Assembly: GCF_900177325.1 (NCBI RefSeq)
Contig: NZ_FXBL01000004.1
Coordinates: forward strand, 3,596,001-3,660,000
From: Mesorhizobium australicum
Lineage (GTDB): Bacteria > Pseudomonadota > Alphaproteobacteria > Rhizobiales > Rhizobiaceae
Length of the DNA stretch: 64,000 nucleotides
Reading direction: 5' to 3'
Shown here: positions 28,433 through 49,565 of the stretch, in pieces
How the letters are laid out: every line of letters starts with the position of its first letter
Position numbering within the stretch: position 1 is the stretch's first letter
Translations under genes and position numbers: made by a program
The notes under the pieces: model-generated
What the model saw: only the letters and a program-made list of their open reading frames with translations
Databases searched by the model: none
Told to the model about the DNA's origin: nothing

Positions 28433-29404
28433 TTACTTGATCGCCGCGTCGGTGATTTCCTTCGTCCAGGCGCCCGACGGCTCCTTGGTCAGGATCTTCT
28501 GGTCGAGCAGCGCCTTGGCGGTGCGGTCGTACGCCGCCTCGATCAGCTTGCCGTCGGCATTGTCGATCAGCTTCGCCACCTCGCCCATCATGCGCTTCTG
28601 GTGGTTCTCGTCCTGGCCGCCGTTCTCGACCACGATGTCGGCCGCCTCGTCGGGGTTCTTCACCGCGTAGTCCCAGCCCTTCATCGAGGCGCGGACGAAC
28701 TTGACCATCTTCTCCTTGAAGGCCGGGTCCTTCAGCTTGTCCTCGAGCGTGTAGAGCCCGTCCTCAAGCAGGTCGACGCCCATGGCCGTGTAGTTGAACA
28801 CGATCAGGTCGTCCGGCTTGTAGCCGGCGTCGATGAGTTGCCAGTATTCATTGTAGGTCATCACCGAGATGCAGTCCGCCTGCTTCTGGATCAGCGGCTG
28901 CACGTCGAACGACTGCTTCAGCACCGTAACGCCGTCGGCTCCGCCTTCGGTCGGGATGCCGAGCTTGTTCATCCAGGCGTAGAACGGATACTCGTTGCCG
29001 AAGAACCAGACGCCCAGCGTATGGCCCTTGAAGTCGGCTTCGGTCTTGATCGGGCCATCCTTCGGGCAGACGAGTTCCATACCCGCCTTCTTGAACGGCT
29101 GGGCGATGTTGACGAGGCCGACGCCCTTCTCGCGGGCCGCCAGCGCGCCGCCCATCCAGTCGACGATCACGTCGGCGCCGCCGCCGGCGATCACCTGCTC
29201 GGGCGCGATGTCGGGGCCGCCCGGCTTGATCGTGACGTCGAGACCTTCCTCGTCATAGAAGCCCTTGTCCTTGGCCACGTAGTAGCCGGCGAATTGGGCC
29301 TGCGTCACCCATTTGAGCTGCAGCGTCACCGCGTCGGCCGCCTGGGCCTGAACGGCGGCCAGCGACACGCCGCCGGCCAGCATTGCGAAGATCAGCTTTT
29401 TCAT
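28433..29404 (-). CDS. ABC transporter substrate-binding protein, ThiY/NMT1-like
   Basis: The 323-residue protein has a signal peptide (MKKLIFAMLAGGVSLAAVQA, cleaved near AQAAD) and the NMT1/THI5-like core VTLQLKWVTQAQFAGYYVA, KGFYDEEGLDVTIKPGGPDI and VDWMGGALAAREKG. Family members bind hydroxymethylpyrimidine and similar rings or other small organic ligands. It is the last gene of an importer operon next to pyrimidine breakdown genes, so a pyrimidine or degradation intermediate is the best guess. The next gene upstream, a permease, is 23 bases away. A strong terminator follows. Confidence 0.88.
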   Translation of the reverse strand: MKKLIFAMLAGGVSLAAVQAQAADAVTLQLKWVTQAQFAGYYVAKDKGFYDEEGLDVTIKPGGPDIAPEQVIAGGGADVIVDWMGGALAAREKGVGLVNIAQPFKKAGMELVCPKDGPIKTEADFKGHTLGVWFFGNEYPFYAWMNKLGIPTEGGADGVTVLKQSFDVQPLIQKQADCISVMTYNEYWQLIDAGYKPDDLIVFNYTAMGVDLLEDGLYTLEDKLKDPAFKEKMVKFVRASMKGWDYAVKNPDEAADIVVENGGQDENHQKRMMGEVAKLIDNADGKLIEAAYDRTAKALLDQKILTKEPSGAWTKEITDAAIK

Positions 29405-29427
29405 TCTTGTTCCCTCTGAAGTTAAGT

Positions 29428-30540
29428 CTATCCACCACGGACAGACGGATGCCAGAACGTCACGGCCCTCTCGATAAGGGCCAGCAAGCCGTAGAAGATC
29501 GACCCAGCCAGCGCCGCCACCGCGATCTCCGCCCAAACCATGTCGACATTCATCCTGCCAACCTCGGTCGAGATGCGGAACCCCATGCCGACCACCGGAG
29601 TGCCGAAGAATTCCGCGACGATAGCGCCAATCAAAGCCAGTGTTGAGTTGATTTTCAAGGCGTTGAAGATGAAGGGCGCGGCGGCCGGAAGCCGCAGCTT
29701 GAGAAGTGTCTGCCAATAGTCGGCGGCATAGGTGCGCATCAGGTCGCGCTCCATATGGCCCGCGGCCGCCAGACCTGCCACCGTGTTCACCAGCATCGGG
29801 AAGAAGGTCATGATCACCACGACCGCCGCCTTGGAATGCCAGTCAAAGCCGAACCACATCACCATGATCGGCGCCACGCCGATGATCGGCAGCGCCGAGA
29901 CCATGTTGCCGATCGGCATGAGGCCGCGCCGCAGGAACAGGAACCGGTCGGCAAGGATCGCGACGGCAAAGCCTGCGCCGCAGCCGATCGCATAGCCGAT
30001 CAGCACCGACTTGAAGATCGTCTGACGGACGTCTGCAAACAAGATCGGCAGCGACGACGCGAACCTCGCACCGATGGCGGAGGGCGGCGGCAGGAGGATG
30101 AATGGGATTCCCGCGCCGCGCGTCACGGCCTCCCAGATGATCAGCAGCCATGCGCCGAAGATGGCGGGAATGATCAGCTTGAGCGCCCAGCCCAGCTCCC
30201 GCGTCCTGATGCCTGAGAGCACCGTGGCAAGCCGCCATGCGAGCAGCCACGCCGCCGCGATCAGCAGGAAGAACGCGCGCGTCGCTTCGCCCTCGTGGCC
30301 GGCAATCCCGCTCAGGAGCAGCCATGCCGCGCCATGAGCCCCGAGGAAGAGAATGACCGCTTCCCCCGCTGCTCCGAGACGCAAGGCCGGCACGAACACA
30401 CCGGCAAGCAGCAGCGCGAATATCGCCGTTGTGGTGACGGCACCGTACCCCGGTTCGGAGACGGCGATGGGCAGAAGCAGCGCCGCGAGCACCGTGGCGA
30501 CAAGCGCAAGCCAGGATTGCCAGGGAAGCCTCGCCATCAT
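29428..30540 (-). CDS. ABC transporter permease with extra N-terminal membrane domain
   Basis: This 370-residue inner-membrane protein is about 110 residues longer than a usual NitT/TauT permease. The C-terminal half has the standard binding-protein-dependent fold, with IWEAVTRGAGIPFILLPPPSAI and an EAA loop in MERDLMRTYAADYWQTLLKL. The first 120 residues add about four hydrophobic helices (LALVATVLAALLLPIAVS, FALLLAGVFVPAL, AFFLLIAAAWLLAWRL). The start overlaps the stop of the other permease (ATGA). Two different permeases thus form the channel. The role of the extension is unknown. Confidence 0.87.
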   Translation of the reverse strand: MMARLPWQSWLALVATVLAALLLPIAVSEPGYGAVTTTAIFALLLAGVFVPALRLGAAGEAVILFLGAHGAAWLLLSGIAGHEGEATRAFFLLIAAAWLLAWRLATVLSGIRTRELGWALKLIIPAIFGAWLLIIWEAVTRGAGIPFILLPPPSAIGARFASSLPILFADVRQTIFKSVLIGYAIGCGAGFAVAILADRFLFLRRGLMPIGNMVSALPIIGVAPIMVMWFGFDWHSKAAVVVIMTFFPMLVNTVAGLAAAGHMERDLMRTYAADYWQTLLKLRLPAAAPFIFNALKINSTLALIGAIVAEFFGTPVVGMGFRISTEVGRMNVDMVWAEIAVAALAGSIFYGLLALIERAVTFWHPSVRGG

Positions 30541-31412
30541 GCCGGCCGCGCCCCCATCAGGCGCTCGGTGATCCTCCCGGCAAGGCCTACCAATGTGACC
30601 AGCAGCATCGCCACAACAGAGCCGGCGACGAGGGCGGCGAACATGTCGATCGTCTGGCTGTAATAGGAGCCGCTGAGCAGCTTGGCGCCGATGCCGGCAA
30701 CTGCGCCCGTCGGCAGCTCGCCGACGATCGCGCCGACGAGAGACGCCGCCACCGCGACCTTCATCGAGGTGAACAGGTAAGGCACCGAAGCCGGCACGCG
30801 CAGTTTCCAGAACACCTGCGATTTCGAGGCGTTGTAGGTGTGCATCAGGTCGAGATGCATGATCTCGGGCGAGCGCAGACCCTTCACCATCCCGACCGCG
30901 ACCGGGAAGAACGACAGATAGGTCGAAATCAGCGACTTGGGGATCAGCCCGGTAACACCGACCGCCGCCAGCACCACGATGATCATCGGCGCCAGCGCCA
31001 GGATGGGAATGGTCTGCGAGGCGATGATCCAGGGCATCAGCGAGCGGTCCAGCGTCGTCACGTGCACGATGCCGACGGCGATCAGGATGCCGAGCACCGT
31101 GCCGAAGGCGAAGCCCAAGAGCGTCGCCGACAGCGTCACCCAGGCGTGGTAAACGAGGCTGCGGTTGGACGTGACCTTCCTGAGGAAGGTGTTCTCGAAG
31201 AAATTCTGCGCCACCTGATGCGGCGCCGGCAGTGTCGGCTTCGGCTGCGTCATCGTCTTGACGACAAACTCCCAGGGCGTCGATGTAATGCCCGCCCGCC
31301 GGTCGAGATCGCGCTGGAACGGGGCGTTCAGCGCATACGAGCCGATGTACCAGGCTGCCACGATCAGCGCGAGGATGACGAGGACGGGGAAGATGGAACG
31401 CAGAGTCCTCAT
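30537..31412 (-). CDS. ABC transporter permease, NitT/TauT type
   Basis: The 291-residue protein has one N-terminal helix (FPVLVILALIVAAWYIGSYA), a periplasmic stretch of about 60 residues, then the usual five-helix permease core with MPWIIASQTIPILALAPMII and an EAA loop in HLDLMHTYNASKSQVFWKL. It pairs with the longer permease encoded downstream (four-base overlap) and follows the ATPase gene by three bases. The periplasmic stretch between helix 1 and the core is unusual for TauC-like permeases. Confidence 0.88.
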   Translation of the reverse strand: MRTLRSIFPVLVILALIVAAWYIGSYALNAPFQRDLDRRAGITSTPWEFVVKTMTQPKPTLPAPHQVAQNFFENTFLRKVTSNRSLVYHAWVTLSATLLGFAFGTVLGILIAVGIVHVTTLDRSLMPWIIASQTIPILALAPMIIVVLAAVGVTGLIPKSLISTYLSFFPVAVGMVKGLRSPEIMHLDLMHTYNASKSQVFWKLRVPASVPYLFTSMKVAVAASLVGAIVGELPTGAVAGIGAKLLSGSYYSQTIDMFAALVAGSVVAMLLVTLVGLAGRITERLMGARPA

Positions 31413-31415
31413 CTA

Positions 31416-32195
31416 TCAATCCTCATAGCTGTGCCCTGCCCTCAACCCCTCCCGCACCCGCGCGGCGATGGCGAGGAATTCCGGCGTTTCGCGGATGTCG
31501 AGTGGCCGCTCCTTCGGCAGCGTCGACTCGATGATATCCGTCACGCGCCCCGGCCGCGGACTCATCACCACGATCTTGGTCGAGAGGTAGACGGCCTCAG
31601 GGATCGAATGCGTCACGAAGCAGATCGTCTTGTTGGTCCGCGCCCACAGTTCCAGCAATTGCTCGTTCAGATGGTCGCGCACGATCTCGTCCAGCGCGCC
31701 GAACGGCTCGTCCATCAACAGCAGGTCGGCGTCGAAGGCGAGCGCGCGCGCGATCGAGGCGCGCTGCTGCATGCCGCCGGACAATTGCCACGGGAACTTC
31801 TTCTCGAAGCCCGTCAAATTCACCAGCGCCAGCGTCCGCCTGATCCGTTCCGCCTGCTCGGCCTTCGAAATCCCCATGATCTCCAGCGGCAGAGCTATGT
31901 TCTTTTCGATCGTGCGCCACGGATAGAGCGCCGCGGCCTGGAAGACGTAGCCGTAGGCCCGCGCCTCACGAGCTTTCTCGGGCGTCATGCCATTGACCGT
32001 GATCGTGCCGCCGGTCGGCTTTTCGAGGTCGGCGATGACGCGCAGGAACGTCGTCTTGCCGCAGCCGGACGGGCCGATGAAGGAAACGAATTCGCCTTTG
32101 CCGATCTCGAGATTGACGTCGTTCAGCGCATGCACAGGTCCGTCGGCGGTCTGAAAGACCAGATCGAGATTGCGGGCGGAAATGATTGATTGCAT
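31416..32195 (-). CDS. ABC transporter ATP-binding protein, NitT/TauT type
   Basis: This 259-residue ATPase has Walker A GPSGCGKTT (41-49), Q-loop VFQAAALYPWRTIEKN, signature LSGGMQQRASIARAL, Walker B LLLMDEPFGALDEIV and switch VTHSIPEAVYL. It is the first gene of the importer operon ATPase-permease-permease-binding protein. A cupin gene is divergent, 189 bases away. No RutR-like box was found in that gap, so RutR control of this operon is not shown. Confidence 0.9.
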   Translation of the reverse strand: MQSIISARNLDLVFQTADGPVHALNDVNLEIGKGEFVSFIGPSGCGKTTFLRVIADLEKPTGGTITVNGMTPEKAREARAYGYVFQAAALYPWRTIEKNIALPLEIMGISKAEQAERIRRTLALVNLTGFEKKFPWQLSGGMQQRASIARALAFDADLLLMDEPFGALDEIVRDHLNEQLLELWARTNKTICFVTHSIPEAVYLSTKIVVMSPRPGRVTDIIESTLPKERPLDIRETPEFLAIAARVREGLRAGHSYED

Positions 32196-32798: not shown

Positions 32799-33176
32799 TC
32801 ACGGGCACTTGCGCACCTCGGACAGTACTTCGCCGGTCGACTGACGCACACGCATCAGCCCCGGGTCGGTGTGGTCCTTCTCGATGATGTACATCTCCAC
32901 CGTCTGGTAGTCCTCGCCCTCGTGCCCGCAGAGCCCGGTCACGATCTGCGCCCCGCTGGTCGACGGCAACGCCTGGACCCACTCGCACAGCGTGACATAG
33001 GTCTCGATGCCGTCCGGCTTGAGCACCACCATGTCGTCGTTCTCGTAGTTGCCGTCCTTGGCATATTTGCAGCCATTCGGATTGCCCCAGGTGCCTTCGA
33101 GCTGGAGCGGCTGGGCAAACAGGCCGGTGGGCAGGCAGGTCACAGCCAGCAGCAGAGCCGCGCGTGCAACTCGCAT
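32799..33176 (-). CDS. Hypothetical exported protein
   Basis: The 125-residue protein begins with a signal peptide (MRVARAALLLAVTCLPTGLF, cleaved near AQPLQ). The mature part has four Cys residues (NPNGCKYA, TLCEW, TGLCGHEGED, VRKCP), which could form two disulfides. I do not recognise the family. The start overlaps the hydA stop by one base, so the two are co-translated. A periplasmic partner for a cytosolic hydantoinase is unexpected and may be only co-transcription. Confidence 0.72.
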   Translation of the reverse strand: MRVARAALLLAVTCLPTGLFAQPLQLEGTWGNPNGCKYAKDGNYENDDMVVLKPDGIETYVTLCEWVQALPSTSGAQIVTGLCGHEGEDYQTVEMYIIEKDHTDPGLMRVRQSTGEVLSEVRKCP

Positions 33177-34627
33177 CACACGCCGCTCGCGGGGATACCC
33201 GACCGCTCGACCTTGCGCGGCGCGACCAGTTCCTTCCAGGTCGACAGCGCGCGGTTGACGGCGCCCTTCGGCTCGCGGCCGACGAATTGGCCGTGGCCCG
33301 GCTTCGCCTCCACCTTGCCGTCGTTCACCGCCAGTTCCCCGCGCGTAAAGACGTAGCGCGGCAGGCCGGTCACCTCGTAGCCCTCGAACACGTTGTAGTC
33401 GATCACCGACTGCTGGCTCTTGGCCGCGATGGTCTTCTTCTTCTTCGGATCCCAGACGATCACGTCGGCATCGGCCCCTTCGAGGATCGCGCCCTTCTGC
33501 GGATACATGTTGAGGATCTTGGCGATGTTGGTGGAGGTGACCGCCACGAATTCGTTCGGCGTCAGCCGGCCGGTGTTGACGCCGGCCGTCCACAGCACCG
33601 GCAACCGGTCTTCCAGCCCACCCGTGCCGTTCGGTATCTTGGTGAAGTCGCCGACGCCGTAGCGCTTCTGGTCGGTGGTGAAGGCGCAGTGGTCCGTCGC
33701 CACCGTCTGCAGCGAGCCGGCCTGCAGCCCCGCCCAGAGCGAATCCTGGTGGGTCTTGTTGCGGAAGGGCGGGCTCATCACGCGCCGCGCGGCATGGTCC
33801 CAGTCCTTGTCGAAATACTCGCTCTCGTCGAGAACGAGATGCTGGATCAGCGGCTCGCCATAGACGCGCATGCCCTTCTGGCGCGCGCGGCGGATCGCCT
33901 CGTGGCTCTGCTCGCAGGAGGTGTGAACGACGTAGAGCGGCACGCCCGCCATGTCGGCGATCATGATGGCGCGGTTGGTCGCCTCGCCCTCGACCTCGGG
34001 CGGACGCGAATAGGCGTGCGCCTCGGGACCGTTGTTGCCCTCGGCGAGCAGCTTCTGCGACAGCGCCGCCACCACGTCGCCGTTCTCGGCATGTACCAGC
34101 GGCAGCGCGCCAAGCTCGGCGCAGCGCTGGAAGGAGGCCAGCATCTCGTCGTCGTTCACCATCAGCGACCCCTTGTAGGCCATGAAGTGCTTGAACGAGG
34201 TGATGCCCTTGTCGACGACGGTCTGCATCTCGTCGAACACCTGCTTGCCCCACCAAGTGATCGCCATATGGAAGGAATAGTCGCAGGCCGCCTTCGAGGT
34301 CTTGTTGTCCCACATCTGCAGCGCCTCAAGCAGCGACTGGTTGGGCGACGGCAGGCAGAAGTCCACCACCATCGTCGTGCCGCCGGCGAGCGCAGCCCTT
34401 GTGCCGCTTTCGAAGTCGTCGGCCGAATAGGTGCCCATGAACGGCATTTCGAGATGGGTATGCGGATCGATGCCGCCCGGCATCACGTAGCAGCCGGTGG
34501 CGTCGTATTCGTGGTCGCCATGCAGGTCGGGACCGATCGCCTCGATCTTACCGTGCCGGATCAGCACGTCCGCCTTCCACGTGCGGTCGGCGGTGACGAT
34601 GGTGCCGTTCTTGATGACTTTGGACAT
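33176..34627 (-). CDS. hydA: Dihydropyrimidinase / D-hydantoinase
   Basis: This 483-residue amidohydrolase opens dihydrouracil or dihydrothymine to the N-carbamoyl-beta-amino acid. The metal ligands His56 and His58 are in GGIDPHTHLEMPF, the carboxylated Lys152 in SFKHFMAYKG, and VHTSCEQSHEAIRRA and VATDHCAFTTDQK carry the remaining His and Asp ligands. Length and motifs match dihydropyrimidinases rather than allantoinases. It is step two of the reductive pyrimidine pathway encoded across this region. It follows mazF by 19 bases, so it either has a promoter in that gap or mazF or is read from the toxin operon. Confidence 0.92.
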   Translation of the reverse strand: MSKVIKNGTIVTADRTWKADVLIRHGKIEAIGPDLHGDHEYDATGCYVMPGGIDPHTHLEMPFMGTYSADDFESGTRAALAGGTTMVVDFCLPSPNQSLLEALQMWDNKTSKAACDYSFHMAITWWGKQVFDEMQTVVDKGITSFKHFMAYKGSLMVNDDEMLASFQRCAELGALPLVHAENGDVVAALSQKLLAEGNNGPEAHAYSRPPEVEGEATNRAIMIADMAGVPLYVVHTSCEQSHEAIRRARQKGMRVYGEPLIQHLVLDESEYFDKDWDHAARRVMSPPFRNKTHQDSLWAGLQAGSLQTVATDHCAFTTDQKRYGVGDFTKIPNGTGGLEDRLPVLWTAGVNTGRLTPNEFVAVTSTNIAKILNMYPQKGAILEGADADVIVWDPKKKKTIAAKSQQSVIDYNVFEGYEVTGLPRYVFTRGELAVNDGKVEAKPGHGQFVGREPKGAVNRALSTWKELVAPRKVERSGIPASGV

Positions 34628-35003: not shown

Positions 35004-35218
35004 TTTTCGAAGTCGTCCGCGAGATCGTCAACCGTCTCGCTCAGTCGATCCAGCTCACCCGAACGCCGATCCGACGCGCGGATCGCGCCAAGCTCGTTGC
35101 CCAGGCGCTCTCGTATCTCACTCTTCGAAAGATCCGGCACCCAGATCTCCACAGGCCGGTACCCCCTGGCGAGCAGTCGGGCCCTTTCGGCATCTGTCAG
35201 TTCTCGTGGACGCCCCAT
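35000..35218 (-). CDS. mazE: MazE-family antitoxin
   Basis: The 72-residue protein begins MGRPRELTDAERARLLARGY and continues RPVEIWVPDLSKSEIRERL, a ribbon-type DNA-binding start found in the antitoxin MazE family of alphaproteobacteria, then a highly acidic tail (LDRLSETVDDLADDFEK) that would cover the toxin. It is translated just before mazF, with a four-base overlap. It should bind its own promoter in the 64 bases upstream, but no clear palindrome was found there. Confidence 0.83.
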   Translation of the reverse strand: MGRPRELTDAERARLLARGYRPVEIWVPDLSKSEIRERLGNELGAIRASDRRSGELDRLSETVDDLADDFEK

Positions 35219-35282
35219 CGCGGCCTCCTCGTTTCGTCCAGACCATTATTGTCCCCTGCTCCGCGCGTTTCAACTGCGACCG

Positions 35283-36466: not shown

Positions 36467-37141
36467 CTAATGCCTCGTTTTGGATAGTCTGAAGGCCTCA
36501 GCTTTGATCAGATCGATCACGCTTTCATCCCGATGTTCATCCTCCTCAAGGACAACATTATGGAAGGTGACGCCGGTCTGATCTTGCCCAACTTCGTATT
36601 GTAAGACTTCCCGATAACGACCGTCGTTCAGAAGCGCGATCAGATAGGAAGTGGTGTACTTCCCGAACTCCAAGGAGGAGTTGATATATCCGACTAGGTC
36701 AGTGAAGCTGGTGTCCTCTAGAAGTGAGATCACGTGAGGATATTGTTCGTCCGCAAATTCGATGAAGTTTCGAACATCGGCTTGAGGATTCTGTAGCGGA
36801 ATGGAGCATGTCGCGAGCGTCGGCACGCGGCAAACAAATGCCCCCGATTCCCGATGTGACAAAGCAAATTTTTCGAAACCCTCAATTTTCATGATCCGCC
36901 AGAGCTGAGAATCTAGCGCCATCGGTTTCACAGATACATCAAATGAAACGCGCCGCGTCGGCCACCAAAGTGATAGGTTTGCAGCGACAAACCATTCCTT
37001 GTAACGCCTCACTAAAGAAGACTGGTACTTCGTCCAACCGCTGCCCTTAGCGAGCTGTCGCAACTCAGTATCGCAGGATTTGTCATAGACTTTCCGCCGA
37101 CTGGCATCGACCCGCGATGAGAGGGAGTATCTTTCACTCAC
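36467..37141 (-). CDS. Hypothetical protein
   Basis: The 224-residue protein is predicted to be soluble. It contains RRYKEWFVAANLSLWWPTRR and a long acidic C-terminal part. It faintly recalls the DUF4304 pattern (a helix with KGSGWTKYQ followed by strands), but I cannot assign it. The GTG at 37141 overlaps the stop of the amidohydrolase by four bases. Base composition is visibly richer in A and T than in the surrounding genes, suggesting later acquisition. It ends the transcription unit of the aminotransferase, cupin and amidohydrolase. Confidence 0.65.
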   Translation of the reverse strand: MSERYSLSSRVDASRRKVYDKSCDTELRQLAKGSGWTKYQSSLVRRYKEWFVAANLSLWWPTRRVSFDVSVKPMALDSQLWRIMKIEGFEKFALSHRESGAFVCRVPTLATCSIPLQNPQADVRNFIEFADEQYPHVISLLEDTSFTDLVGYINSSLEFGKYTTSYLIALLNDGRYREVLQYEVGQDQTGVTFHNVVLEEDEHRDESVIDLIKAEAFRLSKTRH

Positions 37142-38388
37142 CCCACGATCTCCGCCGTCTCCAGCACGGCATGCAGCAGCACGTCGGCGCCGGCGCCGGC
37201 CCATTCCTTGCTGATGTCCTCGGCCTCGTTGTGCGACAGGCCACCGACGCAGGGACACATCACCATCGTCGCCGGCGCGACCTTGGCGGCCCAGCAGGCG
37301 TCGTGGCCGGCGCCGGAGATGATGTTCATGTGCGAATAGCCAAGCTTCTCGGCAGCCGAGCGGACGCGGCCGACCAGCGTCGGGTCGAAGGTGACCGGAT
37401 CGAAATGGCCGACTGCCTCGACCGAGCAGCCGACGCCGAGATCGGCCGCGATCGCCGCCGCCCTTTCCTCGATCGTCGCGCGCATGCGGTCGAGCTTGCC
37501 TTGGTCCGGCGTGCGGATGTCGACGGTGAAGACGACCTTGCCCGGCAGCACATTTCGCGAGTTCGGCGAGAACTTCACCTGGCCGACGCCGCCCACAGCA
37601 CCAGGCTGGTTCGCCATCGCGACTTCCTGCACCATCTCGAAGATGCGCGCCATCGCGAGCCCGGCATTGACGCGCATCGCCATCGGCGTCGAGCCCGTAT
37701 GAGCCTCCCTGCCGGTCAGCGTGAACTCCAGCCACCACAGGCCCTGGCAATGAGTGACGACGCCGATCTGCTTGTTCTCAGCCTCGAGGATCGGCCCCTG
37801 CTCGATATGGTATTCGAAATAGGCGTGCATCTTGCGCGCGCCGACCTGCTCGTCGCCCAGCCAGCCGATCCGCTTCAGTTCCTCACCATAGGTCTTGCCG
37901 TCGAGGTCCTTGCGGCCGTAGGCGTAGTCGAGCGTGTGCACGCCGGCGAACACGCCCGAGGCCAGCATGGCCGGCGCAAACCGAGCGCCCTCCTCATTCG
38001 CCCAGTTCACGACGACGATCGGATGCTTCGTCTTGATGCCGAGGTCGTTCATCGACCGCACGACCTCGAGCGCGGCTAGAACGCCCAGCACACCGTCATA
38101 CTTCCCGCCGGTAGGCTGGGTGTCGAGATGCGAGCCGACATAGACCGGCAGCGCGGCCGGATCCGTGCCCGGCAGCGTCATGAACATCGTGCCCATCTTG
38201 TCGACGCCCATGGTCAGCCCGGCGTCGTCGCACCAGCGCTTGAAGAGATGGCGCCCCTCGCCGTCCTCGTCGGTCAGCGTCTGGCGATTGTTGCCGCCGG
38301 CCACTCCCGGCCCGATCTTCGCCATCTCCATCAGGCTGTCCCACAGCCTGTCCGGATTGATGCGCAGATTTTCGCCGGGTGCCGCCAT
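37138..38388 (-). CDS. M20-family N-carbamoyl-beta-amino acid amidohydrolase (beta-ureidopropionase type)
   Basis: This 416-residue enzyme belongs to the AtzF-unrelated M20 group that includes beta-ureidopropionase (PydC), N-carbamoyl-L-amino acid hydrolase and allantoate amidohydrolase. Metal ligands are visible: His87 and Asp98 in GSHLDTQPTGGKYDG, the pair Glu132-Glu133 in ANEEGARF, and later His residues in EYHIEQGP and SGAGHDA. With PreT/PreA and hydA in the locus, the likely substrate is N-carbamoyl-beta-alanine or its 2-methyl derivative, releasing CO2 and ammonia. It is nine bases after the cupin gene. Confidence 0.87.
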   Translation of the reverse strand: MAAPGENLRINPDRLWDSLMEMAKIGPGVAGGNNRQTLTDEDGEGRHLFKRWCDDAGLTMGVDKMGTMFMTLPGTDPAALPVYVGSHLDTQPTGGKYDGVLGVLAALEVVRSMNDLGIKTKHPIVVVNWANEEGARFAPAMLASGVFAGVHTLDYAYGRKDLDGKTYGEELKRIGWLGDEQVGARKMHAYFEYHIEQGPILEAENKQIGVVTHCQGLWWLEFTLTGREAHTGSTPMAMRVNAGLAMARIFEMVQEVAMANQPGAVGGVGQVKFSPNSRNVLPGKVVFTVDIRTPDQGKLDRMRATIEERAAAIAADLGVGCSVEAVGHFDPVTFDPTLVGRVRSAAEKLGYSHMNIISGAGHDACWAAKVAPATMVMCPCVGGLSHNEAEDISKEWAGAGADVLLHAVLETAEIVG

Positions 38389-38397: not shown

Positions 38398-38694
38398 CTA
38401 TTTCAGTTCGACTTCGACGAAGGCCATCGGTTCGGACCCGCCATTGACGACGTTGTGCTCGATGCCCTCGTCTCGCCGGTAGGCAATACCTGCCTCCATC
38501 TCGACGCGCCGCGAGCCGCCGCCGGGTTCCTCCAGCAGGAACTCGCAGCGCGTGATCGTCGTCACGACATAGTCCATGCCGTGACGGTGCCATCCGGTCT
38601 CCGCGCCGGGCGCGAAGTCCCAGCGCGTGACGCGCACCTTGTCGTCGTCGATCAGGACGGTCGAGGTTGCGACCTCGCGTGCCCGGAACGTCAA
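38398..38694 (-). CDS. Small cupin-domain protein
   Basis: This 98-residue cupin has the motif GAETGWHRHGMDYVVTTITR with the His ligands of the first metal site and GIEHNVVNGGSEPMAFVEVEL at the end. The start is TTG at 38694: it overlaps the aminotransferase stop (ATTGA) and no ATG exists upstream within the frame. Together with the nine-base gap to the amidohydrolase, this places it firmly in the pyrimidine operon. Its role is unknown; it may bind a product or act as an isomerase. Confidence 0.78.
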   Translation of the reverse strand: MTFRAREVATSTVLIDDDKVRVTRWDFAPGAETGWHRHGMDYVVTTITRCEFLLEEPGGGSRRVEMEAGIAYRRDEGIEHNVVNGGSEPMAFVEVELK

Positions 38695-40016
38695 TCCACC
38701 GCCCTCAGCACTTCGCGGACGTGGTCGATCAGCTCGTTGATCTGTCCCTTGGTGATGATCAGCGGCGGCGACAGCGCGATGATATCGCCGGTCGTGCGGA
38801 TCAGCGCCCCACGCTCGAACGCCTTCACAAAGGCCTGGAAAGCCCGCTTGGTCGGCTGGCCGGCGATCGGCTCCAGCTCGATCGCGCCGACAAGGCCGAT
38901 GTTGCGGATGTCGATCACATGCGGCTCGCCCTTGAGCGAATGGAGTGCCTCCTCCCAATACGGCGCAAGTTCCTCCCCGCGGGTGAGCAGGCCCTCTTCC
39001 TTGTAGGTGTCGAGCGTGGCGATGCCGGCCGCGCAGGCGATCGGATTGCCCGAATAGGTGTAGCCATGGAAGAACTCGATCACATGCTCCGGCCCGTTCA
39101 TGAAGGCGTCGTGGATCTCCTTCTTCACGAACACCGCGCCCATCGGGATGACGCCGTTGGTGATGCCCTTGGCCGTGGTGATGATGTCGGGCGTGACGCC
39201 AAAATAATCCGCCGCAAACGGCGCGCCGAGACGGCCGAAACCGGTGATGACCTCGTCGAAGATCAACAGGATGCCGTGCTTGTCGCAGATCGCGCGCAGC
39301 TTCTGCAGGTAGCCCTTCGGCGGGATCAGCACACCGGTCGAGCCCGCTACCGGCTCGACGATCACCGCAGCGACGGTCGAGGCATCGTGCAGCGCGACGA
39401 TACGCTCGAGCTCGGTCGCGATGTCGGCGCCATGCTCCGGCTCGCCCTTGGTGAAGCTGTTCTGACCCGGCAGGTGGGTGTGCGGCATGTGGTCGACGCC
39501 GGTGAGCAGCGTGCCGAACATCTTGCGGTTGGTGACGATGCCGCCGACGGAGATGCCGCCGAAATTGACACCGTGATAGCCGCGCTCGCGACCGATCAGG
39601 CGGAAGCGCGAGCCGTCGCCGCGGGCGCGGTGATAGGCGATGGCGATCTTGAGCGCCGTGTCGACCGATTCGGAGCCGGAATTGGTGAAGAACACATGTT
39701 CCATGCCCTTCGGGGCGATCTCGACCAGCCGGTTGGCGAATTCGAAAGCCAACGGATGGCCCATCTGGAAGGCCGGCGCGTAGTCCAGTTCGCCTGCCTG
39801 CTCGCGGATCGCTTCGGTGATCTTCGGCCGGCAATGGCCGGCATTGACGCACCAAAGACCCGCCGTGCCGTCGAGCACCTTGCGGCCGTCCGTCGTGGTG
39901 AAGTGCATGTCCTTCGCCGACACGAACATGCGTGGCGACTGCTTGAACTGCCGGTTCGCCGTGAACGGCATCCAAAAGGCGTTGAGGTCGTTCGGAACGA
40001 CGCGCGAGTGATACAT
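38691..40016 (-). CDS. Omega-amino acid:pyruvate aminotransferase (class III)
   Basis: The 441-residue PLP enzyme matches beta-alanine:pyruvate transaminases: NAFWMPFTANRQFK near the start, FTNSGSESVDTALKIA for the phosphate site, LLIFDEVITGFGRLG, and the Schiff-base Lys in TTAKGITNGVIPMGAV. It should convert beta-alanine or 3-aminoisobutyrate to malonate or methylmalonate semialdehyde, the last step of the pathway here. ATG at 40016 has GGAAAG upstream and is preferred over a TTG two codons earlier. It is the first gene of its operon and lies 82 bases from the RutR-like box. Confidence 0.9.
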   Translation of the reverse strand: MYHSRVVPNDLNAFWMPFTANRQFKQSPRMFVSAKDMHFTTTDGRKVLDGTAGLWCVNAGHCRPKITEAIREQAGELDYAPAFQMGHPLAFEFANRLVEIAPKGMEHVFFTNSGSESVDTALKIAIAYHRARGDGSRFRLIGRERGYHGVNFGGISVGGIVTNRKMFGTLLTGVDHMPHTHLPGQNSFTKGEPEHGADIATELERIVALHDASTVAAVIVEPVAGSTGVLIPPKGYLQKLRAICDKHGILLIFDEVITGFGRLGAPFAADYFGVTPDIITTAKGITNGVIPMGAVFVKKEIHDAFMNGPEHVIEFFHGYTYSGNPIACAAGIATLDTYKEEGLLTRGEELAPYWEEALHSLKGEPHVIDIRNIGLVGAIELEPIAGQPTKRAFQAFVKAFERGALIRTTGDIIALSPPLIITKGQINELIDHVREVLRAVD

Positions 40017-40097: not shown

Positions 40098-40113
40098 TTG
40101 ACCGAACGGACAA
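40098..40113. promoter_or_regulatory. RutR-like operator between aminotransferase and rutR
   Basis: TTGACCG-aa-CGGACAA is a near-palindrome (one mismatch between arms) and matches 11 of 14 informative positions of the E. coli RutR consensus TTGACCA-nn-TGGTCAA. It lies in the 241-base gap between the divergent aminotransferase operon and the RutR-type gene, so the regulator probably controls both. The consensus is quoted from memory of the E. coli literature. Confidence 0.72.
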
Positions 40114-40257
40114 AGGTTAGCACCGCCTGACGGGCGGTCAAGCGCTTGATAGACGATATGGCAGGCCCGATGCGCGCTCCACGGCGTCAAAGTAACTGGT
40201 CCAGTCCGTTGGTCCAGATCGCTCCGCAGCCCGCGGCGCTCCGGGCGCTTCGCTGAC

Positions 40258-40890
40258 ATGGAAGGCTCGGCCGCCCGTCCCCGCACCCGCATCCAGGCGG
40301 AGAAGCGCGAAACGATCCTCGAAGCCGCGCTGGAGGTCTTCTCCACCCATGGATTCCGGGGCTCCACGATCGACCAGATCGCAGCCGCCGCCGGCATGTC
40401 GAAGCCCAACCTGCTCTACTATTTCCGGCGCAAGGAAGACATCTTCACGACGCTGATCCAGCGCCTTCTCGACACCTGGCTCGCGCCGTTGCGCGAACTG
40501 GACGAGGAAGGCGACCCGATGACGGAGCTGCGCAGCTACATCCGCCGCAAGATCGAGATGGCGCGAGACTTCCCGCGCGAAAGCCGCATCTTCGCCAATG
40601 AGATCCTGCAGGGCGCGCCGCGCATCCTGCCGATGCTGGAGGGCGAGCTGAAACAGCTCGTCGACGAGAAGGCGGTGATCATCCGCGGCTGGATGCGCTC
40701 CGGCCGCATCGCGCGCACCGATCCCTATCACCTGATCTTCTCGATCTGGGCGACGACCCAGCATTATGCCGATTTCGACGTCCAGGTCCGCGCCGTGCTT
40801 GGGCCCGATCGCGGCGGTGACGGCCGCTTCGAGGACGCCGCCCGCTTTCTGGAGCAGCTTTTCGTCGAAGGGCTGAAACCGAAGGCGTGA
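40258..40890 (+). CDS. rutR: RutR-type TetR regulator of pyrimidine breakdown
   Basis: The 210-residue protein has the TetR helix-turn-helix (ILEAALEVFSTHGFRGSTID, AAAAGMSKPNLLYYFRRKED) and a C-terminal domain that follows E. coli RutR closely: LRSYIRRKIEMARDFPRESRIF, FANEILQGAPRI, LVDEKAVIIRGWMRSG and IWATTQHYADFDVQVRAV. RutR is released from DNA by uracil or thymine. Unlike E. coli, where it controls the rut operon, here its neighbours are reductive-pathway genes. It is divergent from the aminotransferase operon; the TRAP genes follow on the same strand. Confidence 0.92.
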   Translation: MEGSAARPRTRIQAEKRETILEAALEVFSTHGFRGSTIDQIAAAAGMSKPNLLYYFRRKEDIFTTLIQRLLDTWLAPLRELDEEGDPMTELRSYIRRKIEMARDFPRESRIFANEILQGAPRILPMLEGELKQLVDEKAVIIRGWMRSGRIARTDPYHLIFSIWATTQHYADFDVQVRAVLGPDRGGDGRFEDAARFLEQLFVEGLKPKA

Positions 40891-44113: not shown

Positions 44114-44129
44114 CGCTCGCCGAAAAAGC

Positions 44130-44585
44130 CTAGCGCCCGATCAACATCAGCGGCTTTCCGGCGGCATCGACGAAGACGACGTCATCGCCGCGCATCTCAT
44201 ATCCTGCGACCTTGTCGATCGCATCGGTGAGCGTCTGCTCGGCGTCGCCGATCTCGCCGGGGCATGCCATCCGCGTCGCCATGCCCGGCGCGAAGGTGAC
44301 GGCACTGCCCTCGCCCGGCATGATCTGGGTGCCGATGCGGTTGCAGCCGACCGAGAGCGAGACGCGCAGATCCTTATCCACTTCTAAGGTGAGCTTCGCC
44401 GCCGCCGGAAGGGGCTGCAGCGCGCCGTCCTTGCCGGCCAGTTCCATCCGCGTCCAGTTGCCGGCCCAGTCGAAGCTCGATGTTGCAGCGGAACTCGTCA
44501 TGGCTGGGCTCTCCGGTTCATCGGCAACGGCAGCTGCCGGGACAACGAAAAGAAGTCCCGCGAGCATCCAGGCTGTCCGTGACAT
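44130..44585 (-). CDS. META (HslJ-like) domain exported protein
   Basis: The 151-residue protein has a signal peptide (MSRTAWMLAGLLFVVPAAAV, cleaved near ADEPE) and a META/HslJ domain with the conserved GCNRIGTQ and the trailing VTFAPGMATRMACPG. Such domains are periplasmic or membrane-associated and of unclear function; HslJ is linked to heat and novobiocin resistance. GGAG lies six bases before the ATG at 44585; a longer start at 44597 is less well placed. It follows the DMT exporter by 66 bases on the same strand. Confidence 0.8.
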   Translation of the reverse strand: MSRTAWMLAGLLFVVPAAAVADEPESPAMTSSAATSSFDWAGNWTRMELAGKDGALQPLPAAAKLTLEVDKDLRVSLSVGCNRIGTQIMPGEGSAVTFAPGMATRMACPGEIGDAEQTLTDAIDKVAGYEMRGDDVVFVDAAGKPLMLIGR

Positions 44586-44651
44586 GTCGATCTCCATGCG
44601 TTTAGTCGCAGCCAACATCCTCCCGGATTGCAGCGCCAGTGTGACTGAAAG

Positions 44652-45569
44652 TCAGTCCCGTGCCAGCGCCATGACGAGTAGGCCGAGCACGGTGATCCCG
44701 GCGCCGGCAGCGACGCCGGCGCTCGCCCAGCCATGTCCGAGCAATCCCTCGTAGAGGATGATGAAGCCGGACGTCAGATAGGTGTAGGCGAGCACTTTCG
44801 CCGCGGGCAGCCTCATCGAGGCATATTGGGTGAGAAAGAACGTGCCACCCGTGGTGAATATGCCGAGATAGAAGATCGACAGCCATGCCGCCGGCGAAAG
44901 GCTCGCCCAGTCGGTCGAGACGATGTCCCGCCAGCCCCAGAGGGCAATGCACAGGCCTGTCGCCGCCACCGTCCAGAGCGTGAAGACGACGCCCGTCTCT
45001 CCCCGATTGAAGCGGCGCAGCAATGGGCCATAGGCGGCATGGCAGAGCACGCCGACGAAGAAAATGAGTTCGCCCCTGCCGACCTGAAGATTGGCCGCCG
45101 CCGAGAGATCACCACGGAAGATCACCCAGAGCGAACCGAACGCCGCGAGCACCAGGCTCGCGACCACGACCCCGCGCGGCTTCTGGCCGAGGAACAGCCA
45201 GCCGAAGCCGGCGCTGGCGATGGGCATCAGGGTGAAGACGGCACCCGTCGACACCGGGTCGGTCAGTCGCAACGCCACGAACATGGTGATGAAGAACACT
45301 GCCATCAGCGCGCCAAGAACGCCGTAGCGCCAGACGGCGCGTGGACGCTCGATCCGGCCACCCGCCAACGCCAGCGCGACGCCTGCCATGATGCCCGTCC
45401 CAATGGCAAAGCGCGCGGCGTTGAGCGCCGCAGGCGAGAGGTAAGGAGCCGCGATCGCACCGAACGAGAACGAACCGGCGACGAACGCCGCAAAGCCCAC
45501 CATTGCGAGATGGCCGAGAAGCTTGTCGCGGCCGGTGGCGAAGGTGGAATGGAGCGCGGGCGCGTTCAA
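44652..45569 (-). CDS. DMT/EamA-family transporter
   Basis: This 305-residue protein has ten hydrophobic segments in two EamA repeats, the first ending with SAALNAARF-like SPAALNAARFAIGTGI and the second with the usual tail GGTFFLTQYASMRLPAAKVL. EamA proteins move metabolites, often outward. Its start overlaps the P450 stop by four bases (ATGA). The coupling to preT-preA-P450 suggests the exporter handles a product or a toxic by-product of that unit, but the substrate is unknown. Confidence 0.87.
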   Translation of the reverse strand: MNAPALHSTFATGRDKLLGHLAMVGFAAFVAGSFSFGAIAAPYLSPAALNAARFAIGTGIMAGVALALAGGRIERPRAVWRYGVLGALMAVFFITMFVALRLTDPVSTGAVFTLMPIASAGFGWLFLGQKPRGVVVASLVLAAFGSLWVIFRGDLSAAANLQVGRGELIFFVGVLCHAAYGPLLRRFNRGETGVVFTLWTVAATGLCIALWGWRDIVSTDWASLSPAAWLSIFYLGIFTTGGTFFLTQYASMRLPAAKVLAYTYLTSGFIILYEGLLGHGWASAGVAAGAGITVLGLLVMALARD

Positions 45570-46780
45570 TGGGTCAACCGCACCGGCAATCGCGCGAGGG
45601 CGCGAATGCCGACGCGCTTGCGCCAGGCGATCTCCTGCGGCGCCACGGCCAGGTGGATATCCGGAAAACGCGCAAAAAGCCTCTCGATCGCAATCCGCAT
45701 TTCGGCACGCGCGAGCTGGAAACCGAGACAGAAATGAACGCCGGTTCCGAACGACAGGTGCGGATTCGGATGCCGGCCGATGTCGAAGCGCTCAGGCACC
45801 TCGAACTTGTCCGGGTCTGTATTCGCCCCGCTGAGAAAGGCAGCAAACATGTCACCGCGACGGAACCGCCTGCCCTGCCATTCCACGTCGGAGCGGGCGA
45901 AGCGCGGCTTGGTCATCTGCACCGGGCAGACCCAGCGCAGGCATTCCTCCACTGCGCCGGGCATCAGCGAAACATCGGCGGTCAGCCGCTCCCTTTCGTC
46001 GTGATGGGTGAGCAAAGCCCAGATGCCACCCGCGATGAGATGCGTCGTCATTTCCTGCCCTGCCCCGAACAGGAGGAAGACCATCGCCACGAGCTCGTCT
46101 TCGGACAAATCGCCATGCTCGGTCTGAGCCTCTCGCAGCGCCGTGATCAGCCCGTCGGGATGCGCCCCTCCGTCCGGCCGCGAGACCGTCCTCAGATAAG
46201 TGACCATGCGCCAGACCCCCGGCACGGCACGCAAAACGGCCCAGATGTTGGCGGTGTCGGTCAGGTTGCCCAACCAGGCTTTGAACCAGTCGTGATCCTT
46301 CTCCGGGAGCCCGAGCATCGCGCAGATGACCGACAGCGGCAGGTCACGGCAATAGGCCTGCATCAGTTCGGCTTCAGGCTTGCCGTCGAGCCGGTCCAGC
46401 AGCCGCTCGGCGACCTGCTCGATCATCGGCTTCATCCCGTCGATGCCCCGGCGCGCGAAGGCCTGATCTACAAGGGAGCGCAGGCGTCGATGTTCGGGAT
46501 CGTCGAGGCCGAGCATGTTCTTCGCGAGCAGGCCGAGCGTCGCCGGCAGCACCTTCAGCACCCGCTCCTGCGTCCGGCTGCCGGCATTGCCGGGATCGCG
46601 GGCGAAGCGCTCGCTGTCCTTCAGAAGTTCAGCCGAGGCAGCGTGCGTCGTCGTCAGCCAGATGCGGCCGAGGATCGGCAGTCGCATCCCCACCACGGGG
46701 CCGGCCTGCCGCATTCGCGTCAGCATCGGAAAGGGATCCGCGTGGAACCCCGGCGAGACGATGTCAAACGCTTCGGCCAT
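45566..46780 (-). CDS. Cytochrome P450
   Basis: The 404-residue protein is a soluble bacterial P450. The I-helix motif is FGAGQEMTTHLI (the conserved acid/Thr pair in the form GQEMTT), the E-x-x-R is in EECLRWVCPVQ, and the haem-binding Cys is in SFGTGVHFCLGFQLAR. No ferredoxin or ferredoxin reductase gene is adjacent. PreA upstream carries 4Fe-4S clusters, but there is no evidence that it feeds electrons to this P450. It is 31 bases after preA and overlaps the DMT gene by four bases. The ATG at 46780 begins the typical MAEAFDIVSPGFHADPFP. Confidence 0.92.
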   Translation of the reverse strand: MAEAFDIVSPGFHADPFPMLTRMRQAGPVVGMRLPILGRIWLTTTHAASAELLKDSERFARDPGNAGSRTQERVLKVLPATLGLLAKNMLGLDDPEHRRLRSLVDQAFARRGIDGMKPMIEQVAERLLDRLDGKPEAELMQAYCRDLPLSVICAMLGLPEKDHDWFKAWLGNLTDTANIWAVLRAVPGVWRMVTYLRTVSRPDGGAHPDGLITALREAQTEHGDLSEDELVAMVFLLFGAGQEMTTHLIAGGIWALLTHHDERERLTADVSLMPGAVEECLRWVCPVQMTKPRFARSDVEWQGRRFRRGDMFAAFLSGANTDPDKFEVPERFDIGRHPNPHLSFGTGVHFCLGFQLARAEMRIAIERLFARFPDIHLAVAPQEIAWRKRVGIRALARLPVRLTH

Positions 46781-46811
46781 GGCGCTCCTCCTGCCGCGGC
46801 CGGAGCCTATC

Positions 46812-48125
46812 TCACTCCGCCGCGACCTTCGCCATGGGATTGTTCGGATGCGTGGTCCAGTTGGCATAGGTCGGCTGGACGGTCTTGCCGGTGCGCTGGT
46901 CGAGCACGCCCGCCGCGAGCGGCACCATGTCGATGCAGCCCTCCACCGGGCAGACGTTGACGCAGAGATTGCAGCCGACGCACTCGTCCTCCATCACCTC
47001 GAAATGCCGCTTTCCGTCGACCATCGAGGTGATCGCCTGGTGCGAGGTGTCTTCGCAGGCGATGTGGCAGCGGCCGCACTTGATGCAAAGGTCCTGGTCG
47101 ATGCGCGCCTTGGCGATGTAGTTGAGGTTGAGGAACTGCCAGTCGGTGACGTTGGGCGTCGCGCGGCCAATGATGTCGTCGAGCGAGCGATGGCCCTTCT
47201 CATCCATCCAGTTTTCCAGACCGGCGATCATCTCCTGCACGATCTTGAAACCGTAGGTCATCGCCGCGGTGCAGACCTGCACGTTGCCGGCGCCGAGTGC
47301 CATGAACTCGGCCGCATCGCGCCAGGTGGTGATGCCGCCGATGCCCGAAATGGGCAGGCCGCGCGTTTCCGGGTCGCGCGCGATCTCGGCCACCATGTTC
47401 ATGGCGATCGGCTTCACCGCCGGACCGCAATAGCCGCCATGGCTGCCCTTGCCGTCGATCGAGGGTTCCGGCGAGAAATTATCGAGATTGACACCGGTAA
47501 TCGAGTTGATCGTGTTGATCAGCGACACCGCGTCCGTGCCGCCCTGATGCGCCGCCCGCGCCGGCTTGCGGATGTCGGTGATGTTGGGCGTCAGCTTTGT
47601 GATCACCGGCATACGCGTATACTGCTTGCACCAGCGCACGACCATTTCGATATATTCCGGCACCTGGCCGACAGCGGCGCCCATGCCGCGCTCAGACATG
47701 CCGTGCGGGCAGCCAAAATTCAGCTCGATGCCGTCAGCGCCCGTCTCCTCGACCAGCGGCAGGATCGCCTTCCAGGATTCTTCGACACACGGCACCATGA
47801 TCGAGGCGACCAGCGCCCGGTCCGGCCAGTTCCTCTTCACCTGCTTCATCTCCTGCAGGTTGATCTGCAGCGCGCGGTCGGTGATGAGCTCGATATTGTT
47901 GAGGCCAAGCAGCCGCCTGTCCGCGCCCCAGATCGCGCCGTAGCGCGGGCCGTTGACGTTGACGACCGGAGGACCTTCCTCGCCCAGCGTCTTCCAGACC
48001 ACGCCGCCCCAGCCCGCCTTGAACGCGCGCTCGACATTGTAGGCCTTGTCGGTCGGCGGCGCCGAGGCCAGCCAGAACGGGTTCGGCGACTTGATGCCGA
48101 CGAAATTGTTGCGAATGTCAGCCAT
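46812..48125 (-). CDS. preA: NAD-dependent dihydropyrimidine dehydrogenase subunit PreA
   Basis: This 437-residue subunit has an FMN-binding TIM barrel like dihydroorotate dehydrogenase and a C-terminal double 4Fe-4S ferredoxin domain (CIKCGRCHIACEDTSHQAI and CVGCNLCVNVCPVEGC). The active-site Cys139 is in LNFGCPHGMSERGMG, matching the catalytic loop of mammalian dihydropyrimidine dehydrogenase. With PreT it reduces uracil and thymine to the dihydro forms. It starts three bases after preT. The P450 and DMT genes follow on the same strand. Confidence 0.94.
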   Translation of the reverse strand: MADIRNNFVGIKSPNPFWLASAPPTDKAYNVERAFKAGWGGVVWKTLGEEGPPVVNVNGPRYGAIWGADRRLLGLNNIELITDRALQINLQEMKQVKRNWPDRALVASIMVPCVEESWKAILPLVEETGADGIELNFGCPHGMSERGMGAAVGQVPEYIEMVVRWCKQYTRMPVITKLTPNITDIRKPARAAHQGGTDAVSLINTINSITGVNLDNFSPEPSIDGKGSHGGYCGPAVKPIAMNMVAEIARDPETRGLPISGIGGITTWRDAAEFMALGAGNVQVCTAAMTYGFKIVQEMIAGLENWMDEKGHRSLDDIIGRATPNVTDWQFLNLNYIAKARIDQDLCIKCGRCHIACEDTSHQAITSMVDGKRHFEVMEDECVGCNLCVNVCPVEGCIDMVPLAAGVLDQRTGKTVQPTYANWTTHPNNPMAKVAAE

Positions 48126-48128: not shown

Positions 48129-49496
48129 TCATGCCCTCCCGTTCGAGGTGAGAGTACGATGAATGCTCTCCGCCGCGTCGCGGCCGGCCGCGACGGCCGC
48201 GACCGTCAGATCCTCGCGCGCATCGGCGACGCAGTCGCCGCCGGCCCAGACCTTGGGATTGGAGGTCCGCCCCTCGGCGTCCACCTTGATGCGGCCTTTC
48301 TCCATCGCGATCGTCGTGCCCGAACCGTTCAGCGGCGCGGCATCGAAGGACTGGCCGATGGCCTTGAACACCTGGTCGGCAGGAAGCACCACGGTCTCGC
48401 CGGTGCCCGACAGCCTGCCATCCGTCTCCGCGGTGTATTCCAGCTCGATGCCGGCGACCTTGCCGTTCGCGGCGATCACGCGCTTGGGCTGCAGCCAGTG
48501 CCGGATCGTCACCCCGTTGGCAGCGGCCAGATCCTGTTCGAACTCGGAAGCGTTCATTTGCTCCTTGCCGCGGCGATAGGCGACCGTCACTTCTTCCGCG
48601 CCCAGCAGCTTCGACTGCACGGCCGCGTCGATTGCCGTCATGCCGCCGCCGATCACCACCACGCGGCGCCCCACCGGCAGCCCGCCGAGGTCGGAGGCCT
48701 GGCGCAGTTCGGCGATGAAATCGACAGCGTTGTCGACGCCGGCGGCCGCCTCGCCTTCCGCCCGCAGCGCGTTGACGCCGCCGAGACCCATGCCGAGGAA
48801 CACCGCGTCATAGGACGCCGTGAGGTCGGCAAGGTGGTAGTCGCGCCCCAGCACCATGCCATTCTGGATGGTGATGCCGCCGATGGCCGTCACATAGTCG
48901 ACCTCCGCCTGCGCGAAGCCGTCGACGCTCTTGTAGGCGGCGATGCCGTATTCATTGAGCCCGCCCGCCTTCGGCTTTGCCTCGAGGATGGTGACATCGT
49001 GTCCCTTGACCGCCAGACGATGTGCGGCGGCCAAGCCCGCCGGGCCCGCGCCAACGACAGCGATCCTCCTGCCCGTCGGCTCGGCGCGCGTATAGAACTG
49101 CTTGCCCTGCCCCATCGCGACATCAGTCGCATAACGCTGCAGCCGGCCGATCTGCACCGGCTTGCCTTCGGCGGTCTCACGCACACAGGCTTCCTCGCAC
49201 AGCGTCTCGGTCGGGCAGACCCGGGCGCACATGCCGCCGAGGATGTTCTGGTCGAAGATGGTCTTCGCAGATCCGATCGGATTGCCCGTCGCGATCTGGC
49301 GGATGAAGAGCGGGATGTCGATGGAGGTCGGACACGCCTGCATGCAGGGCGCGTCGTAGCAGAAGTAGCAGCGATCGGCCTCGACCAGCGCCTCGTGATG
49401 GTCGAGCGGCGGATGCAGGTCCGAGAAGTTGTCGGCGTATTCGGCTGGCGACAGACGGCCCGCGACGATGCCGTCCTTAAGCTGGCCAGTGGCCAT
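48129..49496 (-). CDS. preT: NAD-dependent dihydropyrimidine dehydrogenase subunit PreT
   Basis: The 455-residue flavoprotein has N-terminal 4Fe-4S cysteines (CYFCYDAPCMQACPTSIDIP, CARVCPTETLCEEACV), an FAD site GAGPAGLAAAHRLA and an NAD(P)H site VVVIGGGMTAIDAA. It takes electrons from NADH to PreA, like the small subunit of glutamate synthase. It is the first step of pyrimidine breakdown in this locus. The ATG at 49496 is preceded by a promoter-like segment overlapped by a RutR-like box at 49550-49565, so RutR control is likely. Confidence 0.94.
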   Translation of the reverse strand: MATGQLKDGIVAGRLSPAEYADNFSDLHPPLDHHEALVEADRCYFCYDAPCMQACPTSIDIPLFIRQIATGNPIGSAKTIFDQNILGGMCARVCPTETLCEEACVRETAEGKPVQIGRLQRYATDVAMGQGKQFYTRAEPTGRRIAVVGAGPAGLAAAHRLAVKGHDVTILEAKPKAGGLNEYGIAAYKSVDGFAQAEVDYVTAIGGITIQNGMVLGRDYHLADLTASYDAVFLGMGLGGVNALRAEGEAAAGVDNAVDFIAELRQASDLGGLPVGRRVVVIGGGMTAIDAAVQSKLLGAEEVTVAYRRGKEQMNASEFEQDLAAANGVTIRHWLQPKRVIAANGKVAGIELEYTAETDGRLSGTGETVVLPADQVFKAIGQSFDAAPLNGSGTTIAMEKGRIKVDAEGRTSNPKVWAGGDCVADAREDLTVAAVAAGRDAAESIHRTLTSNGRA

Positions 49497-49529
49497 TTCA
49501 GCAGTTCCCCATTGTTGTTCGTTGGGAAG

Positions 49530-49565
49530 ATGCTAGCACAGGCTATAATTTTATCAATCGGTCAA
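49530..49565 (-). promoter_or_regulatory. preT promoter with overlapping RutR-like box
   Basis: On the minus strand TTGATA (49557-49552), a 16-base spacer and TAGCAT (49535-49530) resemble a sigma-70 promoter 34 bases before preT. TTGACCG-at-TGATAAA (49565-49550) overlaps the -35 element and matches 11 of 14 positions of the E. coli RutR consensus. A bound RutR would block the -35, consistent with repression lifted by uracil. The flanking gap up to 49700 is AT-rich and holds nothing else recognisable. Confidence 0.55.

Follow-up and report, generated by a model that had tools for sequence, protein, structure and literature searches.

The stretch considered here is a window of 64 kb from the genome of Mesorhizobium australicum (G000:C4:3596001-3660000, G000 being the source genome), and it carries a predicted locus for pyrimidine uptake and breakdown around the gene of a RutR-type regulator. 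The left arm lies on the minus strand and consists, in order, of an ATP-binding cassette (ABC) importer (binding protein, two permeases and ATPase), hydA, an M20 amidohydrolase gene, a small cupin gene and aptA. To the right of aptA come rutR on the plus strand, a variable stretch (a TAXI TRAP pair on the plus strand; META, EamA and cytochrome P450 genes on the minus strand) and, again on the minus strand, preA and preT. The importer genes, all on the minus strand, encode an NMT1/THI5-like solute-binding protein (28433..29404, PF09084), a permease (29428..30540; PF00528 within the open reading frame (ORF) 29428-31419, start picked by eye), a second permease (30537..31412, PF00528) and an ATPase (31416..32195, PF00005). 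The predicted fold of the binding protein (mean pLDDT 90.2) is closest to the thiamin- and formylaminopyrimidine-binding proteins 4nmy and 3ix1.

The first-pass annotation of this DNA had read preT, preA, hydA, the M20 gene and the omega-aminotransferase gene as a full reductive route, and this is supported, as far as the semialdehyde, by curated cutoffs for PreA and AptA together with domains and similarity. The catalytic subunit of dihydropyrimidine dehydrogenase, preA (46812..48125, minus strand), scores 738.8 bits against NF006183 (cutoff 335), and the omega-aminotransferase aptA (38691..40016, minus) 771.7 bits against NF052567 (cutoff 500). The flavin adenine dinucleotide (FAD)/iron-sulphur subunit, preT (48129..49496, minus), was assigned by domains alone, namely PF14691 (dihydropyrimidine-dehydrogenase domain II) and PF07992 (Pyr_redox_2), and lies below every NCBIfam equivalog cutoff among the matches listed (25 families). 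For the dihydropyrimidinase hydA (33176..34627, minus, PF01979) the best solved relative is the dihydropyrimidinase 3dc8, at 896 bits. The M20 gene (37138..38388, minus, PF01546, type A lineage) was named N-carbamoyl-beta-alanine amidohydrolase by similarity, with related carbamoylases scoring alike: of its top three relatives, two are entered as N-carbamoyl-L-amino-acid hydrolase and one as N-carbamoyl-beta-alanine amidohydrolase (8c46, 785 bits). No protein of the genome reaches the family cutoff of RutA, from the Rut ring-opening pathway (the best has 145.4 bits against a cutoff of 498.3).

The regulator gene, rutR/pydR (40258..40890, plus strand), encodes a predicted uracil-type TetR repressor, and the earlier description of it as a clear RutR homologue is borne out. 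The protein is 45.5% identical to E. coli RutR (92/202), has the TetR N-terminal domain PF00440 and the 'YcdC-like' domain PF08362 over their cutoffs, and is the product of the sole PF08362 gene of the genome. Passages of a 2024 paper (PMC10891134) give W77, Y97, W167, Q171 and Q179' as the uracil contacts of E. coli RutR. Their counterparts in the window are W74, Y94, W164, Q168 and Q176, and an alignment of 84 RutR proteins, that of the window among them, has the same five residues in every one, indicating a true homologue with an intact uracil pocket. Near rutR there is also a conserved direct repeat, TGGACCA-N6-TGGACCAG (40196..40216, minus), which is strongly kept in the aligned upstream regions and has matches in 9/31 genomes; another conserved site of this form is found elsewhere, for example at G000:C4:3041568.

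Two RutR boxes are predicted in the window, one directly after the likely aptA -10 (40098..40113) and one overlapping the preT -35 at 49557-49552 (49550..49565). Both had been proposed earlier, in the aptA/rutR gap and over the preT -35, as matching 11 of 14 positions of the E. coli RutR consensus, and positions and counts were confirmed: each has three mismatches over the 14 specified positions of that consensus. As evidence by itself this match was rejected, because nine sites in the window reach the 11/14 level (0.95 expected), seven of them at other places than the two boxes. A matrix was therefore built from orthologous boxes, and it is this matrix, not the consensus match, that is decisive, as only the two reported sites reach at least 15 bits in 64 kb and none does in 10 shuffles. 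The likely aptA promoter is TTGACC (40141-40136), a 16-base spacer and TAACCT (40119-40114), and the promoter scan placed the preT promoter at TTGATA, a spacer of 16 and TAGCAT preceded by TG, in agreement with the claim that the box overlaps the -35. That both boxes are real operators is supported by the matrix and by conservation among relatives.

The conservation of the boxes was counted at 12.4 bits, the 99.9% point of 880 shuffled sequences, in regions with at least 150 bases upstream. A box of at least this strength stands before aptA in 69/70 regions and before preT in 58/59, counts that are descriptive only because the matrix was trained on these boxes. The controls are independent, and here a site was found upstream of hydA in 0/67 regions, of preA in 0/84 and of abcA in 1/72. 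For the other genes the counts were 16/76 for M20, 0/5 for taxiS and 1/8 for slt. Alignments of 53 aptA and 41 preT upstream regions have the box with the likely promoter as their most conserved stretch besides the start region. All ten loci without aptA beside rutR (L070-L075, L077, L078 and L080 among the named loci, and L103) have the box before M20 instead; the nine named ones comprise members of the Rhizobium/Ensifer/Agrobacterium group and one unplaced isolate of Rhizobiales. Six Mesorhizobium loci (L007, L008, L014, L015, L017 and L024) have a box of at least 12.4 bits before M20 despite the presence of aptA, as if a second operator had come in with an insert between these two genes.

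Across Rhizobiales, none of 80 named loci departs from the gene order of the window locus within the stretch that it covers; 16 of them fall short of full length on either side. The left arm is complete (abcA, hydA, M20 and aptA) in 57 of these loci and preA-preT is on the right in 57, whereas the whole set from abcA-hydA-M20-aptA-rutR to preA-preT is present in 40. The nearest RutR proteins among the named loci are mostly from Mesorhizobium, those at the head of the list being 82-88% identical. By sequence, the core is an ordinary and widely shared uracil/thymine uptake and breakdown set under a uracil-sensing switch, and the ABC importer, regarded at first as an extra, is part of it, with abcA in 71/80 named loci. 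The M20 position is held by two lineages, 25 rows being like that of the window and 54 of the other type (79 rows, of which L318 and L003 are probably the same contig), with 72% identity between and 84-85% within lineages. The genus mates G002, G004 and G005 have the other type (73-74% identical to that of the window). Because M20 diverges while the same genomes stay close at aptA (92-99%) and hydA (94-98% in G002 and G005), an in-place replacement of M20 in the genus mates is suggested.

The first-pass annotation had seen an anomaly in a RutR homologue placed over the reductive pathway; the observation holds, with more support than that annotation could show, and the surprise does not. PydR of Pseudomonas putida (Hidese et al. 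2012, cited in the reference list of PMC7332683) is a RutR-like repressor of the reductive pathway, and, to judge by that title, it resembles the regulator proposed here in being of the TetR family and in repressing the gene of dihydropyrimidine dehydrogenase. RutR regulons have been catalogued in 68 proteobacterial genomes, with 13 groups, 273 sites and 743 target genes (Leyn et al. 2016, PMC5343134), where RutR is likewise treated as a regulator of pyrimidine degradation with a motif that changes by taxon; the main text of that paper does not list target genes for this group. With RutR and the rut operon of E. coli the locus shares a TetR regulator, the uracil pocket residues and a palindromic 16-base box. 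It differs in having reductive genes under predicted control and no RutA over cutoff, and the local boxes often read TTGTCC...GGTCAA or TTGACC...GATAAA. In Sinorhizobium meliloti, passages of three papers describe a NitT-type binding protein, SMc01827, induced by uracil and uridine (PMC6421345), the ABC system, which is up in an hfq mutant, the mutant being more 5-fluorouracil-sensitive (PMC3484140), and an N-carbamoyl amidohydrolase, SMc01820, with a 'glutamate synthase small chain', SMc01814 (PMC2912261), which we read as preT. As far as these passages go, the SMc01814-SMc01827 region resembles the locus in combining a NitT-type uracil/uridine importer with an amidohydrolase and a preT candidate. 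Given PydR, the catalogued regulons, the S. meliloti importer and the shared gene order, the core is of a known kind.

The finding that is likely to be new is that predicted RutR boxes also head two operons with nucleoside-type ABC importers. A scan of related genomes with a RutR motif had been proposed as a check and was carried out. In the source genome the pattern occurs six times and its reverse once; two of the six sites are the boxes of the window. One predicted box lies 36 bases before the ABC ATPase gene at the head of a nup operon with importer, cytidine deaminase (cdd), purine-nucleoside phosphorylase, deoC, aldehyde dehydrogenase and thymidine phosphorylase (deoA) genes, four products of which pass curated cutoffs. 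Another lies 42 bases before the gene of a BMP-type binding protein, which is accompanied by its ABC genes. These further targets were tested independently with orthologous upstream regions taken by protein from 61 family genomes and scored with a matrix derived solely from the boxes of aptA and preT. A box above 12.4 bits was found before the BMP operon in 17/20 relatives and before the nup operon in 15/44. The nearest curated NCBIfam names for these importers (a putative B6 transporter) are far under cutoff, and the substrates of both importers are inferred from the operon partners as nucleoside-type. A literature search, which did not extend to RegPrecise or to supplements, gave no report that RutR controls operons for nucleoside import in Rhizobiales, and absence is not claimed. 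A protease gene with a box-like site (G000:C4:1611312; L122, L152) and a weak site at C4:5120077 (L125) are probably chance matches.

The link to nucleoside operons bears also on the substrate of the pathway. HydA is of the hydantoinase type, with D-hydantoinases among its solved relatives, and the M20 protein is of the carbamoylase type, two of its three best relatives being N-carbamoyl-L-amino-acid hydrolases, so the importer and enzymes might serve hydantoins or other cyclic ureides instead of uracil and thymine. However, a dihydropyrimidine dehydrogenase and a regulator with a uracil pocket share the conserved locus, and the boxes tie that regulator to nucleoside operons, which makes the hydantoin explanation extremely unlikely.

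Taken together, the locus is very probably the Rhizobiales form of a reductive pyrimidine-degradation locus under RutR/PydR control, repressed by RutR and released by uracil or thymine, because the boxes are conserved and the uracil-contact residues invariant. The ABC importer would bring in the substrate, PreTA would reduce uracil and thymine to their dihydro-forms, HydA would open the ring, the M20 enzyme would form beta-alanine or beta-aminoisobutyrate and the aminotransferase would yield the semialdehyde. Two operons face rutR from either side, with one predicted box per promoter. When uracil and thymine are lacking, a RutR dimer would occupy each of the two boxes, directly behind the aptA -10 and across the preT -35, and transcription would be blocked; the ligand would then stack in the conserved pocket, RutR would leave and both operons would come on. 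The same release may turn on the two nucleoside-type importer operons, as suggested by the boxes elsewhere in the genome.

Expression of the E. coli rut operon depends on NtrC under nitrogen limitation, as stated in passages of PMC10891134, and it could be argued that RutR acts mainly as an activator or a relay of nitrogen status, the locus being switched by nitrogen limitation and not by pyrimidines. However, a box on the likely -35 and another directly after the likely -10 fit repression, PydR is titled a repressor and the pocket residues are intact. Such a role is thus unlikely, and nitrogen control may act on top of RutR.

Several points weigh against the reading of the locus as reductive pyrimidine breakdown under RutR control. 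Support for RutR binding and control is at the level of sequence, and the 84 RutR proteins with the invariant pocket were chosen by similarity to that of the window. The aptA promoter was placed by eye; the preT promoter taken alone is weak, since the scan found three promoters against 1.3 expected and the preT match is within chance. No enzyme taking the semialdehyde to acetyl-CoA was found in the window locus. The identification of SMc01827 as counterpart of the window gene is indirect and relies on its family and on the gene order of Ensifer loci (L070, L072). Before the nup operon, 10/54 regions were dropped with the gene start outside the stretch, and the box is absent in 26 of 41 usable regions from relatives that bear PF08362. 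The three usable nup regions from genomes without PF08362 all fall below 12.4 bits (3/3), a contrast that is only suggestive because 26/41 of the PF08362 genomes also fall below.

Boxes of this type may serve the reductive pathway in some relatives and the Rut pathway in others. A swap of pathway under one regulator was looked for in four rutA regions (G020, G023, G042 and G063). G023, which lacks a strong preA match, has two boxes of 19.9 and 23.1 bits before a true rutA (L197, G023:C1:390952-390986), and it is on these boxes that the suggestion is based. The rutA regions of G020, G042 and G063 have none of at least 13 bits, and no PF08362 gene was found in these three.

The first-pass annotation had also counted an importer, a TAXI TRAP system, cupins, a P450 and an exporter as additions to the textbook pathway. 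All are present. As noted, the importer belongs to the core; the P450 and exporter are variable, and membership in the regulon is unsupported for the TAXI TRAP pair, which has its own box in 0/5 upstream regions, and for the cupin at 32.4 kb, which is on the opposite strand. The small cupin gene between M20 and aptA (38398..38694, minus) has PF07883 at the 3' end of ORF 38398-39975, its start being approximate. On the minus strand directly downstream of preA lie the cytochrome P450 (45566..46780, PF00067), the EamA exporter (44652..45569, PF00892), with a 4-base overlap with the P450 end, and after it a META-domain protein (44130..44618, PF03724). The genes do lie together, and the P450, eamA and META genes are tightly spaced in the direction of preA, as might be expected if TAXI TRAP, P450, exporter, cupins and the rest of the island had been acquired as one functional unit. 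However, the stretch between rutR and preA ranges from 24 to 8582 bases with changing genes in 63 loci (window included), where an EamA gene occurs in 10, a TAXI pair in 5 and such a P450 in 2. The core genes are kept without the cargo and the cargo does not co-vary as one block; acquisition of the island as one unit is hardly to be expected. The corresponding part of the window (40891-46811), where rutR and preA converge, is a hotspot for cargo genes among relatives, and genes that resemble, by eye, those for Rrf2, carboxymuconolactone-decarboxylase-type and DoxX proteins are common there.

The P450, exporter and META genes, variable as they are, follow preA and are probably in its operon. 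Matches to the P450 at 1e-60 were found in 24/297 family genomes, seven at 70% identity or more, and six of these seven are found no more than about 3 kb downstream of preA (G000, G002, G004, G006, G131 and G209). The seventh, in G299, is on a 19.9 kb stretch with no preA or rutR match, and G003 is an eighth case with the P450 adjoining preA. The order P450-eamA-META occurs in G000, G002, G004 and G006; G005 has eamA and META without the P450. From this distribution the link between P450 and preA is real but narrow. In the I helix of the window P450, the acid-alcohol pair has Met in place of the Thr of all 25 other aligned rows (AGQEMT vs AGxETT), two rows being probably the same contig. It is conceivable, and very unlikely, that in one branch of Mesorhizobium relatives the P450 draws electrons from PreT, an NAD(P)H-fed flavin/iron-sulphur protein on the same transcript, and adds a hydroxyl group to a pyrimidine, to a breakdown product or to a toxic analogue, with EamA exporting the product. 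If true, the RutR-controlled preTA operon would have gained a dedicated oxidative side branch.

Other genes lie close by. Within the operon, beside hydA, there is a MazF/PemK-like toxin gene (PF02452) with a MazE-like antitoxin gene (PF11455) at 34647-35219, and the left flank of the locus (25730-28167) has protocatechuate dioxygenase-type (PF00775 twice) and lyase-type (PF00206) genes. Composition, tRNA and terminator scans gave no useful result.

A RutR-type switch over the reductive route appears to be a conserved arrangement in Rhizobiales, and it provides a testable operator set. Whereas the core is expected, the P450 and the predicted control of nucleoside operons merit the attention of specialists. 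According to passages of PMC7142369, the reductive pathway has been proposed as a source of beta-alanine for pantothenate in rhizobia, and thus the switch may affect vitamin supply besides nitrogen use. Under a shared release of RutR, nucleoside uptake, base release and base breakdown to beta-alanine would answer one signal, and such a wider regulon under one ligand is suggested.

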